Of a DNA stretch of 31,242 nucleotides, positions 3,678-10,508 are shown in pieces. The notes under the pieces were generated by a model. The model was given only the letters and a program-made list of their open reading frames with translations. It did no database searches and was not told the origin of the DNA. The stretch's first letter is position 1. Every line of letters starts with the position of its first letter. Both the position numbers and the translations under genes were made by a program. This DNA comes from a virus, in the IMG/VR virus record IMGVR_UViG_3300037189_010237, positions 1 to 31,242 of that record; one strand, 5' to 3'.

Positions 3678-4421
3678 ATGGCTAATAGTACAAAAAATAT
3701 TATTGTAGGTGCAGCGGATATCTTCATTTCAAACGTAAATGGTGATGCTCGTCCAGCAACAGATAACACAACTCTAGCAGGTATCCTACCAGCTTCAACT
3801 TCAGCTCGTACAGGTCTTCTGTCATCAGCAGACTATCGTGAAGTTGGTTATACAGCAACAGGATTTGAAGTTTCTTATGAGCCTTCATACGGTGAAGTTC
3901 AAGTTGATCAACTTCTTGATGCAGCTCGTTTATTCAAGCAAACACTTAAAGTTATGCTTAAGACAGAACTTACAGAAGGTACACTTGAGAATCTTACTCT
4001 TTCATGGGGTCAAATGGATTCTTACTATGTAAATACAACAGGTTCAACAATCAATGCAGTTCCTACATACTCTGCAGTTAAGGTTCAATCTACTGATCAA
4101 GCAGGTGCAACACTTAACCTTGCAGCAGGTGCTCTTGGAGATGCTCCAGTAGAGCGTACTCTAATTGCAGTTGGAAATGCTCCAGCTTACACACAAGGAA
4201 GCAAGTTTGGTTCAGCAGGTGCACAGGGTTCAATTCGTCAGAAGGAGCGTGTTTATGTAGCACGTCGTGTTGTATCAGTAGATACAACAATGCATGCTCT
4301 TAAGCGTGATTCAGCAACAGTGTTCCCAGTGAACTTCCGTTGCCTTCCAGATGATCGTTCAAATAGCTATGCAGGATCAGAATACGGTGTAGTAATTGAC
4401 CGTGTTTATGGAACTGTCTAA
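3678..4421 (+). CDS. Major tail (tube) protein
   Basis: A 247-residue, beta-rich protein between the tail terminator and the tail chaperones, which is the diagnostic place of the tail tube subunit. It has strands around GAADIFISNVNGD, a STSARTGLLSSADYREVGYT stretch resembling the 'G.t.dGv' region of tube proteins, and FEVSYEPSYGEVQVDQLLD, which fits the beta-hairpin plus helix of the polymerising tube domain. Codons are clearly optimised (CGT, CTT, GTT, ATC, AAG), as in the capsid gene, which implies very high expression. It stands alone between its own promoter and a strong terminator. ATG follows the AAGGTGGTG site by 11 bases; the A-run just before the ATG probably keeps the start open. 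Confidence 0.8.
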   Translation: MANSTKNIIVGAADIFISNVNGDARPATDNTTLAGILPASTSARTGLLSSADYREVGYTATGFEVSYEPSYGEVQVDQLLDAARLFKQTLKVMLKTELTEGTLENLTLSWGQMDSYYVNTTGSTINAVPTYSAVKVQSTDQAGATLNLAAGALGDAPVERTLIAVGNAPAYTQGSKFGSAGAQGSIRQKERVYVARRVVSVDTTMHALKRDSATVFPVNFRCLPDDRSNSYAGSEYGVVIDRVYGTV

Positions 4422-4450
4422 AACTAAATAACAATTTAATAATATTCAAG

Positions 4451-4475
4451 CCCCGTCAGAAATGACGGGGCCTCT
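4451..4475 (+). terminator. Terminator hairpin after the major tail gene
   Basis: The arms CCCCGTCA (4451-4458) and TGACGGGG (4463-4470) are perfectly complementary and are closed by a GAAA (GNRA-type) tetraloop. The following bases (CCTCTGAATTTGTG) contain only a weak T-run, so termination may be partial. The hairpin may also protect the 3' end of the major tail mRNA. Confidence 0.7.
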
Positions 4476-4498
4476 GAATTTGTGTCTACCCATTCTAT

Positions 4499-4507
4499 TG
4501 GTATAAT
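4499..4507 (+). promoter_or_regulatory. Extended -10 promoter (TGGTATAAT) for the chaperone/tape measure operon
   Basis: TATAAT at 4502-4507 is preceded by TGG. TTGTGT at 4480-4485 gives at best a weak -35 with a 16-base spacer. A start near 4514 leaves a short leader with the AAAGGAG ribosome site at 4517-4523, 7 bases before the TTG start at 4531. It lies just behind the terminator, so the downstream genes have their own promoter. Confidence 0.6.
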
Positions 4508-4530: not shown

Positions 4531-4866
4531 TTGGCAACAACAGTATATGATATTTTGGAAATTGAATTAAGTGATGGATCAACCATTGAGTTGAGACCTC
4601 TACCTATTAAGCAGCTTAGAAAGTTTATGGCTACTATTAAGCAGATGGAAGACACAGAAGATGGCAATGAAGATGCAGCAATGGATGTTTTCATTAAAGC
4701 AGCAATGATATGCCTAGAGGTATTTAAACCAGAACTATCAAAAGATACAGATAAGTTTGAAGAATTAGTTGAAATTCCTACAATGATGAAGATTTTAGAA
4801 ATTTGTGGCGGTTTGAAATTAACAGACCCAAACCTTCTGGGAGCAGCTCTAGTTGGGACGAACTAG
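4531..4866 (+). CDS. Tail assembly chaperone, short form (G-like)
   Basis: A 111-residue protein starting at TTG with a well placed AAAGGAG. By position (between the tube and tape measure genes) and by its overlap with a second frame it is the gpG-type chaperone, which coats the tape measure protein during tail assembly and is absent from the finished virion. It begins with a short strand (YDILEIELSDGSTIELRPLP) followed by helices (IKQLRKFMATIKQMED and DVFIKAAMICLEVF), the normal pattern for this family. Two acidic stretches (about 38-50 and 70-80) are seen. Normal termination occurs at TAG 4864-4866; a minority of ribosomes should shift at 4827-4833 into the longer form. Confidence 0.8.
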   Translation: MATTVYDILEIELSDGSTIELRPLPIKQLRKFMATIKQMEDTEDGNEDAAMDVFIKAAMICLEVFKPELSKDTDKFEELVEIPTMMKILEICGGLKLTDPNLLGAALVGTN

Positions 4867-5144
4867 ATCTACGCTCCCTGGAGTCCGAAGCTTTCTTACT
4901 TGGTCATTGGAAAAACTTTGACGAGTTAGAATCAACACTTTCTATCTTAGAGCTTAATGAAATATTAAATGCTATGAGAAAGAAAGAAGAGCGTAAAATG
5001 AAGTTCCAAGCAGCAATGAATGGAGTTGATCTTGATGAATCTTCTAGCGAAGAATCAGATATTACAGATCTCAATAATTCCAGAGTTGCTCAAGGCGAAG
5101 GGTTCGGAGTTGGCGAAGGACTCGGGTTCATGGAACTTGAATAA
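4531..5144 (+). CDS. Tail assembly chaperone, long form made by -1 frameshift (GT-like)
   Basis: Ribosomes reading CCA-AAC at 4828-4833 can slip back one base and continue from 4833 in the frame that is open to 5144, giving a fusion of about 204 residues: 101 from the first frame and 103 from the second. The junction reads KLTDPN then PSGSSSSWDELDLRS. The added domain has helices around FLLGHWKNFDELESTLSI and LNEILNAMRKKEERKMKFQA, and a Gly/acid-rich tail. In lambda and many siphoviruses the GT form links tape measure protein to tube subunits. The second frame has no credible start or ribosome site of its own: a TTG at 4803 lies well inside the overlap without a Shine-Dalgarno. This supports expression only as the fusion. 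Confidence 0.8.
4827..4878 (+). promoter_or_regulatory. -1 programmed frameshift signal: slippery CCCAAAC plus stem-loop
   Basis: The heptamer C-CCA-AAC at 4827-4833 is in the correct phase (X XXY YYZ) of the first chaperone frame and is the only such site in the 64-base overlap. After a 5-base spacer an elaborate hairpin begins. GGGAGC (4839-4844) pairs with GCTCCC (4873-4878). Beyond a 2-base bulge, AGCTCTAGTT (4845-4854) pairs with AACTAGATCT (4861-4870) with one mismatch, around the loop GGGACG. Spacer length and stem strength match known bacterial/phage stimulators. Confidence 0.8.
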
Positions 5145-5162: not shown

Positions 5163-8100
5163 ATGGCACGTATAGAACTTAATATAGTTGCATTAGGTGA
5201 TTTTACATCAGTTAATGCACAAATTAAATCACTCCAAACGCAAATTGGTTTATTAAATAAAAGTGTTGCTGGTGTTGGATTAGGCTCAGCACTTGCTAAA
5301 GACCTAGCGGCAGCACAAGCAGCATTTAATTCGACAATGCTATCTACTGGTCAGTTTACTCAAACTACAGTAAAAATGACAGCAGAAACTGAAAAGTTTG
5401 GTGCTGCATTAATGTCTGGAAAGTTAAAACTTTCTGAATATTTTAATATAATTACTGGCAAAGCTGGACAATCTGCAGCAGCCATGAAAGCACTTGCAAT
5501 AGAGCAAGTAAAGCTGCAAGAATCAGTTGTTATGTCAGATCCGACAAAACGTGGAATTTTTTCTGTATATACGCCAACACAAATTAATGCTATTACTGCA
5601 TCTACAAAGCTTGCTACAATGCAACAAAATCTTTACAATTTAGCTCTTGAAAAATCATCCCTTGCACTTGTTACATGGGGTAAAAATACTCAGTGGGCAG
5701 GTCGTCAGTTGACTGTTGGTCTTACTATGCCTATGGTTATGTTTGGTGCAGTTGCTACTAAATCATTTAAAGATACAAATACAGAGCTTACAAGATTACA
5801 AAGATTATATGGAGTTGGGCTTGTAGCACCAAGTGCGGATCAAATTAATAAAATTTCTTCACAAGTAATTGATTTAGGTAAGAAGCTTGCAACAAGCATG
5901 GGAACAGCGCAAAAAGATACTGCAGCAACAGCAGCCGATTTTGCTGCTATTGGCAGAACTGGAGACGACTTACTTACTGCAACAGAACAAGCTATGAGAC
6001 TTTCTAAACTTGGCTCAATTGATGCACATCAAGCATTTACTGGGATTATGACTTTGCAAAATACTTTTAAAGTTGGATCTAAAGATCTTGCAGAAGGCGT
6101 AAACTTTATGACTGCAATTCAAAAGCAGACGGCTTTGAACTTGAATGATATTACTGATGCTTTTCCAAGAATTGGTCCTATTGTAAAACAACTCGGTGGA
6201 ACATATAAAGATACAGCAGTAATGATGCTTGCTATGAAAGAAGCGGGAGTACCAGCAGCACAAGCTGCTAACGCTATTAAATCAGCTATGGCATCACTTA
6301 TATCCCCAACAACTGCAGCAAAAGATATGTTTGCAAAGTTTAACATTAATTTAGGTCAGATTGCAACATCAACTGGTGGTAATCCAGTTAAAATGATTTT
6401 TGCTTTACAGCAAGCTTTGCAAGGTATTGCCCCGCTTGCCAGAGAACAACTTATTGAAAAGCTTTTTGGAAAATTCCAGTTTGCTCGTGTTACAGCACTC
6501 CTTGATAATTTAGGAAAGGCTGGATCTCAAACGCAGCTAGGATTTAAAATTGCTGGAGCTTCAGCAACAGAACTTGCAACACTTATTGATCAAGAAATGA
6601 AAATTGCTACAGAATCTGTTACTGGTAAATGGTCAAGAGCAATTGAAGGATTTAAAGCAACAATCTATCCAGTGGGCCAAAAGTTTCTTGAAATGGGAAC
6701 AATGATTCTTAATTTTGCTAACAAAATTGGAAAAGCTTTTTCAAGTCTGCCAAGTCCAATAAAAACAGTGCTTGGAATATTTGCGGGTGGAGCGGCACTT
6801 GCAGGACCAGTAATTATGTTAACTGGTCTTTTAGCTAATTTTGCGGGATATATACTTAAAGCTTTTATTAATTTAAAACAATTAATAACTGGCGGAAAAA
6901 CTTTTAAAGAGCTTTTAACACCAGAAATTATTGCATCACAAAATGCTGCACAATTATTTGGATCAGAAATAGCAAAAGATGTTGAAGCTGTTGATTTGCT
7001 TGCAGCAGCAATTGAAAAGTTAACAACATCTTTGACTGCAATGCAAGCAGGCCTTACTGCTTCAACTGCAGACGCAGCAACAGCAGCAGCATCAACGATG
7101 GCATTAGCAAATACAAACATGTCTTCTACAAGAGGAATTTATGGACAAATGACGGTTGCAGAAGCTCAAGCAAGAGCGGCAGCGGGAGACGCAGGATTTG
7201 CTGGAAGATACAAAACAGGAGCTGCAAGTCCAAACAATCTTCCATTTAAAACACTTGCTCAAGATGAAACAGTATTAAGTAAGCCAACAAGTGGAGTATT
7301 TGCCATACGTGGAATTAATGAAAAGCTTGCATCTGAAGAAGGTGTTGCAGTAGAAGAATACATAAAGGCAATGACAGACGCAACTGGCGAAACCGAAGCT
7401 TATGCTTTAAAGTTTAAGACAAGCTCAACACAGTTCCTAGAAGCATTGACAAAAATGGTTGATGATGAAGGTAGAATACTGTTAACTCAAGAAGACGCTC
7501 TTAAGATTAATGAACAAATTAATATAGAATACGAAAAAGAATTGCTTAAGATGAAAACTGTTAACGATGTTAACAATCCAATTGCATCAGTTTCAAGTAG
7601 AGTTATGGCTCAAAATTATGCTCTTTCAAGTAATCCAGCAGCAATGCAAAAATTTTGGAATCAATTTAATTTATCAAGCAGTAATGTATTTGATCAAAGA
7701 AACCGTGCTGGTGGAGCTGGTGCATGGATTGGTGGAGCAGAAGGATTTGCTCGTCAACAAGTAGCACTCACTGGAGCAGGAAATGTACAATTTGTTCATG
7801 CAATGAATGAAGAATTTAAAGCAAATGAAGCAAGAATTATTGAGAGTATGCGAGAAACCGCTAGAAATGCTGGAGTAGCATTTGACGAAACCCTGGTTCC
7901 ACAAATACAAGCAGGACTTGAAGCTCTTCCAAATGAAGTTAAAGCAATTATAAATGAATCATTTGCTGGACTTCCAGCACTTGTAGAAAAAGATGCAGTA
8001 ACAGTTGCAATGGCATGGGAAGAAGGAATGGTTGCAGCAATTGCAAAATCTGAAGTTCCAATTTCTGAAGCCGTAAGAGAAGAATTAATCGCACTAGCAA

Positions 8101-10508
8101 TTGCTGGTGCACCAGAAGCAGAGCTTGCAGGAATGACTTTGGGAGAAGCATTCATGGCTGGTCAAGCAAAAGCTATGGGTGTAGTTGGTCCACAAAGAGA
8201 GCTGCCAGGAATTTTACGTGGAAGAGCAGGCGGAACATCTGGAAGAATGGGTGGAATGGGAGTAGGAATGGTCGCCATGATGGGTGGCTCTATGCTTTCA
8301 GGTAAAGGCGGTATGGCTGGCACAGCAGGATCAGTTCTTTCAAATGTAGGTATGGCATCTATGATTGGAATGTTCTTACCAGAATCAATTCCACTTATGC
8401 CAATTTTGGCTGGAGTAGCAGCAGTAACACTTCTTTATAAAGCTGTTGAGCATCTTTCTGAAGTAGAAAAGAAACATAAGGCCGAAGCAGAAGCAGATTG
8501 GAAAATAAGTGCAGATGCAGCATCATTTTACGGAAATTCAATTGATGCAGCAACAAAAGCATTTGGACAATTTACATCCGTTGTTCAAGGTGCAGCTAGC
8601 GTAGTTTCTGCAAGCGATGTTCAGCTAGCAAACTTTGTAGATATGGTTAATAAACTACCTAAAGATAATCCTTTGTCTTTAGTGTTTCAACAACTTACAG
8701 ATGAAACTAATCCAGCAAAAATTAAAAAAATTATACAAGAATATGTAAATCTTCAAGTAGCAATGGGTGCAATTAAACCAGAGCAAGCACAAGGGTTTAT
8801 TGATCTTTTATTAAAAGCTACTGGTCATGGAACATCAATAGGAAACATTTTACCAGAAACAAAAACACAACTAGAAGCAGTTAGCGCAGCTTTGAAAGAA
8901 ACAAAAAATGATACGGAAAAATTCCAAAGCACATTTATGTCCTCCATGTCTTTAGTTGCTGGGGCATCAAGTCAAACAGAACTTGAATCTAGATTGCAGG
9001 CCGTAATAGCTGGTTTAGGTGATGCATCTCTTGGTGTTGATATGTTAAAGCAACATTTTATTTCTATGGGCAAAGAAGGAGCAGCACAACTACAAACACT
9101 TCAAGCATTGTTAGCATTGCATTTCTCTTCACAAGGTATTATGGAAATTATGGCTTTGCTTTCAGCGGGTGGTTCAGTAACAGCAACTGATCCTAAAACT
9201 GGTAAAGCAAAAACTGAACAACAAATGATAGCAGAGTTAGCTGCATCCGCATTTACCGCAAGTAATTCAACTAATGCAAAGACCAAAAGTTTGGATTCAG
9301 CTAATGCAAAAATTGGTTCACAAAATGATAAATATAAAGCTCAAATTGATCTTTTAACAAAACAAAAAAATAAACTTGATGATGCTTTAAAAACTCAACA
9401 AGCAATAACTGCTGAATTAAAAAGACAACAAGACTTTATGGTTTCTCAAGCAGATCTTGAAGGACAAATAAGAGTAGCAATTGCAAGTGGAGATTATCTA
9501 AAAGCAAATCTTTTACAAATGCAAAAAAATTCTGGTATTACAGATTATGCAAATCAAAATGCTACAAATGCATTACAAAATCAAATAGATGCCCTAGACA
9601 AACAAATTAAAAACTATCAACAAGCTATGACTGATAATCAAACAGCTATTGATAAAAATACTAAAGCTATTGATACTTTAAATAAAGATGGAGTAAAAGT
9701 TGGAAGCATAAATTGGGGAGATTTAGTAAAAGCTTTAGGAATTTTGCCTCAAACTGCTACCAAAGGACAAATAGCAAAATCAGTTGTTTCTAATGCACCA
9801 TCTGCATCAGGATTTTATAGAAACTATAGTGCCACTGGCAGCGGAGATACGTATACAGAGTTTGTTGATCCAGGATCTTCTGTTCCTACATCGTTAAGTG
9901 AACAAAAACAAAAAACAATAGCTTTAATGATGGCGCATGCAGATCAAGGAAAATTAAGTTGGCAAATGGGATCTGGTGGAGAAAGACAAGCAGTTAAAGC
10001 TTATGCAGCAGCAATGGGCTTTACTATGGATGATTCTAATCAAGGAATATTTGCTATACATGGAGCAAAGAAACAATATTTATTCCAAGTTGTTGATAAA
10101 GATGGAAATGTACACATGCTTGGTTCTGGAGGACCAAATCAAAGTTGGGATGGAAGTAAATTTAAAGCAACTGGCGGAGCAATCAGAAAATTTGCAACAG
10201 CAGGAATGATTACTGGTCCAGGTGGAGCAACATCAGACATGGTTCCAATTTGGGCATCTAATGGTGAATATATGCATAGAGCATCTGCAGTTGCTAAATA
10301 TGGAACATCATTTATGGATTCAGTTAATAATGGTTCATATGATCCACAAATGCCAAATGGCGTTGGTTCTGGTACAATTAGCAATAGTACATATAACATT
10401 AATGTTACTGTAAATAACGAAGATGCACAGGGTATAGCGAATACTGTTGTAACCGCTATTAAGAGATTGCCAGGAATGACTGAATCTAATAGAAGGGTAG
10501 TGGTCTAA
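5163..10508 (+). CDS. Tail length tape measure protein
   Basis: At 1781 residues this is one of the two longest genes of the window and sits directly after the tail chaperones. It sets tail length and probably helps DNA entry; by the usual ratio of about 0.15 nm per residue the tail would be roughly 270 nm long. A TP901-type core lies at about 175-380, with ADFAAIGRTGDDLLTATEQA near 258 and AVMMLAMKEAGVPAAQAANA near 353. Hydrophobic, membrane-like stretches are at about 536-565 and 1043-1099. A coiled-coil part (DLLTKQKNKLDDALKTQQ) is near 1395-1430 and again about 1480-1515. The C-terminal GGAIRKFATAGMITGPGG ... SNGEYMHRAS region is typical of actinophage and Gram-positive phage tape measures. 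No lysozyme or peptidase motif is recognised. The ribosome site AAAGGGGG is 12 bases upstream; the stop overlaps the next ATG. Confidence 0.93.
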   Translation: MARIELNIVALGDFTSVNAQIKSLQTQIGLLNKSVAGVGLGSALAKDLAAAQAAFNSTMLSTGQFTQTTVKMTAETEKFGAALMSGKLKLSEYFNIITGKAGQSAAAMKALAIEQVKLQESVVMSDPTKRGIFSVYTPTQINAITASTKLATMQQNLYNLALEKSSLALVTWGKNTQWAGRQLTVGLTMPMVMFGAVATKSFKDTNTELTRLQRLYGVGLVAPSADQINKISSQVIDLGKKLATSMGTAQKDTAATAADFAAIGRTGDDLLTATEQAMRLSKLGSIDAHQAFTGIMTLQNTFKVGSKDLAEGVNFMTAIQKQTALNLNDITDAFPRIGPIVKQLGGTYKDTAVMMLAMKEAGVPAAQAANAIKSAMASLISPTTAAKDMFAKFNINLGQIATSTGGNPVKMIFALQQALQGIAPLAREQLIEKLFGKFQFARVTALLDNLGKAGSQTQLGFKIAGASATELATLIDQEMKIATESVTGKWSRAIEGFKATIYPVGQKFLEMGTMILNFANKIGKAFSSLPSPIKTVLGIFAGGAALAGPVIMLTGLLANFAGYILKAFINLKQLITGGKTFKELLTPEIIASQNAAQLFGSEIAKDVEAVDLLAAAIEKLTTSLTAMQAGLTASTADAATAAASTMALANTNMSSTRGIYGQMTVAEAQARAAAGDAGFAGRYKTGAASPNNLPFKTLAQDETVLSKPTSGVFAIRGINEKLASEEGVAVEEYIKAMTDATGETEAYALKFKTSSTQFLEALTKMVDDEGRILLTQEDALKINEQINIEYEKELLKMKTVNDVNNPIASVSSRVMAQNYALSSNPAAMQKFWNQFNLSSSNVFDQRNRAGGAGAWIGGAEGFARQQVALTGAGNVQFVHAMNEEFKANEARIIESMRETARNAGVAFDETLVPQIQAGLEALPNEVKAIINESFAGLPALVEKDAVTVAMAWEEGMVAAIAKSEVPISEAVREELIALAIAGAPEAELAGMTLGEAFMAGQAKAMGVVGPQRELPGILRGRAGGTSGRMGGMGVGMVAMMGGSMLSGKGGMAGTAGSVLSNVGMASMIGMFLPESIPLMPILAGVAAVTLLYKAVEHLSEVEKKHKAEAEADWKISADAASFYGNSIDAATKAFGQFTSVVQGAASVVSASDVQLANFVDMVNKLPKDNPLSLVFQQLTDETNPAKIKKIIQEYVNLQVAMGAIKPEQAQGFIDLLLKATGHGTSIGNILPETKTQLEAVSAALKETKNDTEKFQSTFMSSMSLVAGASSQTELESRLQAVIAGLGDASLGVDMLKQHFISMGKEGAAQLQTLQALLALHFSSQGIMEIMALLSAGGSVTATDPKTGKAKTEQQMIAELAASAFTASNSTNAKTKSLDSANAKIGSQNDKYKAQIDLLTKQKNKLDDALKTQQAITAELKRQQDFMVSQADLEGQIRVAIASGDYLKANLLQMQKNSGITDYANQNATNALQNQIDALDKQIKNYQQAMTDNQTAIDKNTKAIDTLNKDGVKVGSINWGDLVKALGILPQTATKGQIAKSVVSNAPSASGFYRNYSATGSGDTYTEFVDPGSSVPTSLSEQKQKTIALMMAHADQGKLSWQMGSGGERQAVKAYAAAMGFTMDDSNQGIFAIHGAKKQYLFQVVDKDGNVHMLGSGGPNQSWDGSKFKATGGAIRKFATAGMITGPGGATSDMVPIWASNGEYMHRASAVAKYGTSFMDSVNNGSYDPQMPNGVGSGTISNSTYNINVTVNNEDAQGIANTVVTAIKRLPGMTESNRRVVV

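Follow-up and report, generated by a model that had tools for sequence, protein, structure and literature searches.

The slippery heptamer of the phage lambda G/GT frameshift is G_GGA_AAG. This -1 shift falls near the 3′ end of G and gives rise to a short and a long product with a common N-terminus (Levin 1993; Xu 2004, 2013, 2014, via PMC5009743), and chaperone shifting of the lambda type is a low-frequency event (G:GT about 30:1; PMC5009743). In the E. coli signals dnaX and IS911 a heptamer is followed, after a spacer of 5-8 nt, by a stem-loop (PMC4066793). According to the same paper, the A-site codons that slip best in E. coli are all-purine ones, AAG among them, with C_CC.A_AA.G reaching up to 54 % in the presence of the IS3 pseudoknot, while heptamers with AAC in the A site fall into a weak class and A_AA.A_AA.C and G_GG.A_AA.C are given as low-efficiency, though probably used. 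The locus described here lies in a virus record of 31,242 bases (hereafter the window; GC 34-38 %). It resembles lambda in its gene order, in a predicted -1 shift close to the 3′ end of a G-like gene and in the predicted pair of products, one short and one long, with the same N-terminus, but has C_CCA_AAC as its heptamer together with a strong conserved hairpin enclosing the 0-frame stop. Its cassette comprises an X_XXY_YYZ heptamer, a spacer within the 5-8 nt range and a stable downstream structure, as in dnaX and IS911, with AAC and not AAG as the A-site codon. Closer still are phages of the Stanwilliamsviridae (Annadreamy, Comrade, Karimac, Coruscant), which have homologous proteins in the same order and in most cases a GS-rich linker followed by SW[DE]ELDL. 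We propose, at a probability of about 0.93, that a programmed -1 frameshift at CCCAAAC, stimulated by the hairpin, allows a single message to yield two tail assembly chaperones.

The gene order along the window, all on the + strand, is major tail, G, T and tape measure. The upstream neighbour (3678-4421) matches PHROG 2175 (E 2.2e-32), labelled 'protein with Ig domain', the product annotated as major tail protein in Stanwilliamsviridae records, and PHROG 885, major tail protein, at E 0.015. The downstream neighbour (5163-10508) encodes a tape measure protein of 1781 aa with matches to PHROG 10030 (E 2e-101) and Pfam PhageMin_Tail (E 8.7e-26). Between them the 0 frame encodes, from a TTG start, a G-like tail assembly chaperone of 111 aa (4531-4866; PHROG 10504, E 2.4e-28) and the -1 frame a T-like extension of 103 aa (4833-5144; PHROG 10474, E 4.4e-14), both PHROGs being without assigned function. 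By tblastn the 111-aa protein shows 41-50 % identity over most of its length to Streptomyces phage (Stanwilliamsviridae) chaperones; none of our searches detected similarity to lambda G at the sequence level. An AlphaFold2 model of this first product, built on an alignment of viral-contig loci only, reached a pLDDT of 75 and matched a predicted 'Tail assembly chaperone' in BFVD (E 4.8e-7). Its best PDB match, the HK97 tail assembly chaperone 2ob9, is weak (E 0.45, TM 0.45), and a PDB sequence search with the chaperone profile returned nothing convincing. The putative assignment as a tail chaperone is carried by synteny and homology, the PDB fold match alone being too weak.

The heptamer (4827-4833) stands in phase with ORF 4531-4866, where the 0-frame codons read GAC|CCA|AAC, and is separated from the hairpin by a spacer of 5 nt (4834-4838); both the phase and the spacer length agree with the initial annotation of this DNA. 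Past the slip site the -1 frame reads CCT TCT GGG AGC and stays open to 5144, for a predicted fusion of 101 + 103 = 204 aa. In the proposed mechanism most ribosomes would translate 4531-4866 and terminate at the TAG (4864-4866) within the hairpin, releasing the 111-aa G-like protein. A minority would pause when CCA occupies the P site and AAC the A site, the base of the hairpin (4839) then lying at the mRNA entrance of the ribosome; both tRNAs would then slip one base back and re-pair on CCC and AAA, and translation in the -1 frame would run on to 5144 to give the 204-aa G-T-like fusion. If the lambda analogy holds, the partner bound by the G part would be the tape measure protein, and the major tail protein would be recruited by the T part. 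We infer both that the shift takes place in vivo and that the hairpin stimulates it.

Searches with tblastn returned 129 phage records, 127 from Streptomyces phages and two from Rhodococcus phages; those fetched were mostly Stanwilliamsviridae, and most carried the label 'tail assembly chaperone'. GTDB genome contigs yielded no relative. The comparative set, drawn from four viral-contig scans and the isolate records, comprised some 280 loci with 134 distinct sequences, in which the -1 frame runs on into a conserved domain. CCCAAA[CT] occurs at any distance from the stop in 111 of the 134, and an in-phase CCCAAAC (66 sequences) or CCCAAAT (13 sequences) lies exactly 37 nt before the stop in 79, which is more than chance; in relatives the slip site is invariant or nearly so. 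Other distances were 40 nt (13 sequences), 43 nt (18) and 67 nt (1), while CCCGGAA was present in 18 sequences and CTCAAAC in two. CTCAAAC replaces the heptamer in loci L034/L036 (also L195/L196), which are contigs of different metagenomes, with the hairpin and both frames persisting; the replacement should weaken re-pairing in the P site.

The -1-frame peptide after the heptamer, a GS-rich linker and then SW[DE]ELDL in most, is kept from the window's own group to the Streptomyces phages. Translation of this second frame independently of the first, from a start of its own or by reinitiation after the TAG, would accord with its annotation as a separate CDS in Coruscant, Annadreamy, Karimac, Circinus and others, as in many sister isolate records, and the window itself has a possible start, a TTG at 4803, in a -1 frame that is open from 4774. 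We regard it as very improbable, however: a -1-frame stop sits immediately 5′ of the slip site in 46 of the 134 distinct sequences and one codon further upstream in 14 more (60/134 in total), in 122/134 no ATG, GTG or TTG occurs from the upstream -1 stop as far as the conserved tryptophan, leaving no usable start ahead of SWDELDL, and closely related records annotate a join for the chaperone gene (Patelgo, Yaboi, TunaTartare, Phredrick and Francesca). Because of the upstream -1 stop and the lack of a start, ribosomes in these relatives have essentially one route to the conserved peptide, a change of frame made after that stop and before the one in the 0 frame. Gene order, homologues, conservation of the -1 frame and the lack of another start together strongly support the lambda G/GT-type shift that had been suggested for the window. 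The 64-base overlap of the two frames given in the initial annotation holds if counted from the TTG at 4803, but not for the -1 frame as a whole, which is already open from 4774. In loci L082, L083, L086, L093 and others the -1 part is annotated as a gene of its own with a start, often as a hypothetical protein. Such separate-gene annotation is probably mis-annotation, and the programmed shift would correct the many isolate records that split the chaperone gene into two CDS.

The proposed stimulatory hairpin (4839-4878) has the 6 + 2 + 7 base pairs, single bulge and single mismatch described for it initially. Its base stem pairs GGGAGC (4839-4844) with GCTCCC (4873-4878) and is followed by AG (4845-4846) with CT (4869-4870), the C4847.T4868 mismatch and an upper stem of TCTAGTT (4848-4854) with AACTAGA (4861-4867); the loop is GGGACG (4855-4860) and the bulge a 2-nt AC at 4871-4872. 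As had been noted, the hairpin spans the 0-frame stop, the TAG at 4864-4866 lying in the 3′ arm. It does not lie wholly inside the overlap as claimed, since the 3′ arm continues for 12 nt past the last base of the stop at 4866. Folded alone, the 40-nt hairpin has an energy of -19.2 kcal/mol (z -3.7), with 1/200 shuffles as good. The minimum-energy fold of the naked RNA gains four pairs, 4834-4837 with 4880-4883, which consume the spacer; these extra pairs would be melted by a ribosome sitting on the heptamer. At +17 from the stop (4881-4883 in the window), GAG is present in 49/49 distinct close relatives, whose Glu codons elsewhere are mixed; it may lengthen the lower stem through a C4834-G4883 pair, or have some other role.

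Among relatives with a stop distance of 37 nt, distinct sequences folded singly gave a mean z of -3.07 for 46 with CCCAAAC and -2.6 for 11 with CCCAAAT. As two proteins are encoded across the hairpin, we used a dual-coding null, in which random sequences keep both encoded peptides. Under this null the window gave z -3.19, with 0/300 randomisations as good, and all 59 distinct sequences fell below the null mean (mean z -1.76; p < 0.05 in 25/59), three of them, L201, L202 and L209, lying near the null. The mean dual-coding z was -0.19 in the distance-43 group and -0.74 in the distance-40 group; for the CCCGGAA group the null leaves almost no sequence freedom and has no power. The hairpin is more stable than two overlapping frames require.

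The covariation check proposed initially was negative by columns and positive when arms of diverged relatives were exchanged. Column by column with the structure of the window, the 59 distinct sequences held one double-sided pair change, which is not above shuffles, because close relatives hardly vary and distant ones change register. The RNAalifold consensus of the set was a different, weak structure, and Rfam 15 gave no family match above gathering score. When 3′ arms were swapped among relatives, however, natural pairs folded better, with 1/2000 permutations as good for the 59 sequences and 2/5000 for 14 diverged representatives (shared ancestry uncorrected in both). Base stems have been rebuilt as GGTGGC/GCCACC (L278), GGCAAG/CTTGCC (L279), GGGGGC/GCCTCC (L256) and GCGGCT/AGCCGC (L203). 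In the 3′ arm past the 0-frame stop, where a single frame is coding, Ser is TCC in 47/49 distinct sequences and the Arg/Ser codon preceding it ends in C in all 49, the set having been chosen without conditioning on stem sequence; codons outside the stem are mostly mixed, with GAG at +17 (49/49), GGT at +38 and TTT at +53 as exceptions.

These data bear on whether the frameshift is real but the hairpin a mere by-product of the overlapping frames, the 0 frame encoding GTN-stop and the -1 frame SWDELDL. The loop and upper stem do overlap, base for base, codons that are fully conserved in each of the two frames, column covariation is absent as described above, and related phages manage without a hairpin. 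We nevertheless consider a by-product unlikely, given that the natural fold is still exceptional under dual-coding randomisation, that the arm swap favours natural arm pairs and that synonymous third positions are frozen in the base stem past the 0-frame stop. A role for the hairpin as frameshift stimulator is well supported by these comparisons of sequence.

Two further readings concern the nature of the structure. Were the stimulator a pseudoknot, the loop GGAC would pair with a downstream GTC[CT], and in the window's own group both the loop GGGACG and GAGTC[CT] are conserved; sister groups, however, retain the loop but carry GAATCT, GAAGCT and similar sequences downstream, so that the pairing is lost, and the WDE codons account for the loop, which makes a pseudoknot rather improbable. 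That the stem-loop, GC-rich and situated in a tail operon, serves mainly to terminate transcription or to mark a site of mRNA processing is hardly credible, as no T tract follows it (CTGGAGTCCGAAG), a terminator scan did not list it on the + strand, and it lies inside coding sequence at the spacing of a frameshift stimulator.

The signal differs between the window's group and its sister lineages. In Loccivirinae (Streptomyces phages) the heptamer is CCCAAAT, placed 43 nt ahead of the stop, and a hairpin signal is lacking, the 17 sequences of this type at distance 43 giving a mean fold z of +0.29; because they use the heptamer in this way, the wider family can dispense with a structure. Boydwoodruffvirinae have CCCGGAA 52-61 nt before the stop and a small GCCGC/GCGGC hairpin. 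Annadreamy carries the hairpin-free CCCAAAT and Karimac the CCCGGAA site, and both infect laboratory strains. Loci L082, L085, L086, L087, L089, L094, L096, L098 and L100, which are Boydwoodruffvirinae and close relatives, are without a classical heptamer, and in loci of this type GACCCGGAA is invariant, the CCC being often preceded at once by a TGA in the -1 frame, and the GCCGC/GCGGC hairpin follows 6 nt on. C_CCG_GAA in these isolated phages is a candidate non-canonical -1 slip site.

The initial annotation had suggested that the heptamer with its long hairpin might give a high or tightly set shift ratio. A high ratio is unsupported, AAC-ending heptamers belonging to the weak E. coli class in the account cited above (PMC4066793). 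Given how weakly AAC slips in the E. coli A site, and with A-site AAG used by no member of the family, efficiency is probably low to moderate, and by the same analogy a weak slip site raised by the hairpin would be likelier than a high-efficiency signal.

Taken as a new example of the known lambda G/GT-type frameshift that carries a lineage-specific stimulator, the locus is well supported by the comparative evidence. The type of signal is familiar from tailed phages; the conserved hairpin is not shared by the better-studied Streptomyces-phage cousins. In a fuller account, for which the arguments seem to us evenly balanced, a weak C_CCA_AA[CU] site would have gained or retained a hairpin enclosing the 0-frame stop in one large, mostly uncultured phage group, the stem being rebuilt in shifted registers in different sublineages, and sister Streptomyces-phage lineages would shift on the same site with no hairpin or on the non-canonical CCCGGAA. 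If true, the family would be a natural series of ways of setting one protein ratio. Slip site, spacer and structure vary between sister lineages while the proteins remain homologous, and the setting of the short-to-long chaperone ratio is therefore directly testable.

A WhiB gene, an actinobacterial marker (PMC10202952), was found in 2/6 related contigs searched, and together with the affinity to Streptomyces phages this makes an actinobacterial host likely for the uncultured phage of the window. Upstream of the chaperone gene, an intergenic hairpin (4448-4473, + strand), GCCCCGTCA-GAAA-TGACGGGGC, is terminator- or processing-like; it is GC-rich, with a loop that is often GAAA or TTCG and no strong T tract, and its stem is re-formed by many different complementary base sequences across 70 distinct relatives. 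An extended -10 promoter-like TTGGTATAAT follows at 4498-4507 (+ strand), TATAAT being present in 70/70 distinct upstream regions of the group with a heptamer-to-stop distance of 37. The TATAAT found in all 70 and the rebuilt stem make it probable that a separate promoter, lying downstream of a terminator or processing hairpin, serves the chaperone and tape-measure genes. The TTG start at 4531 is likewise TTG in 82/133 distinct related upstream regions, and possibly limits translation of the chaperone.
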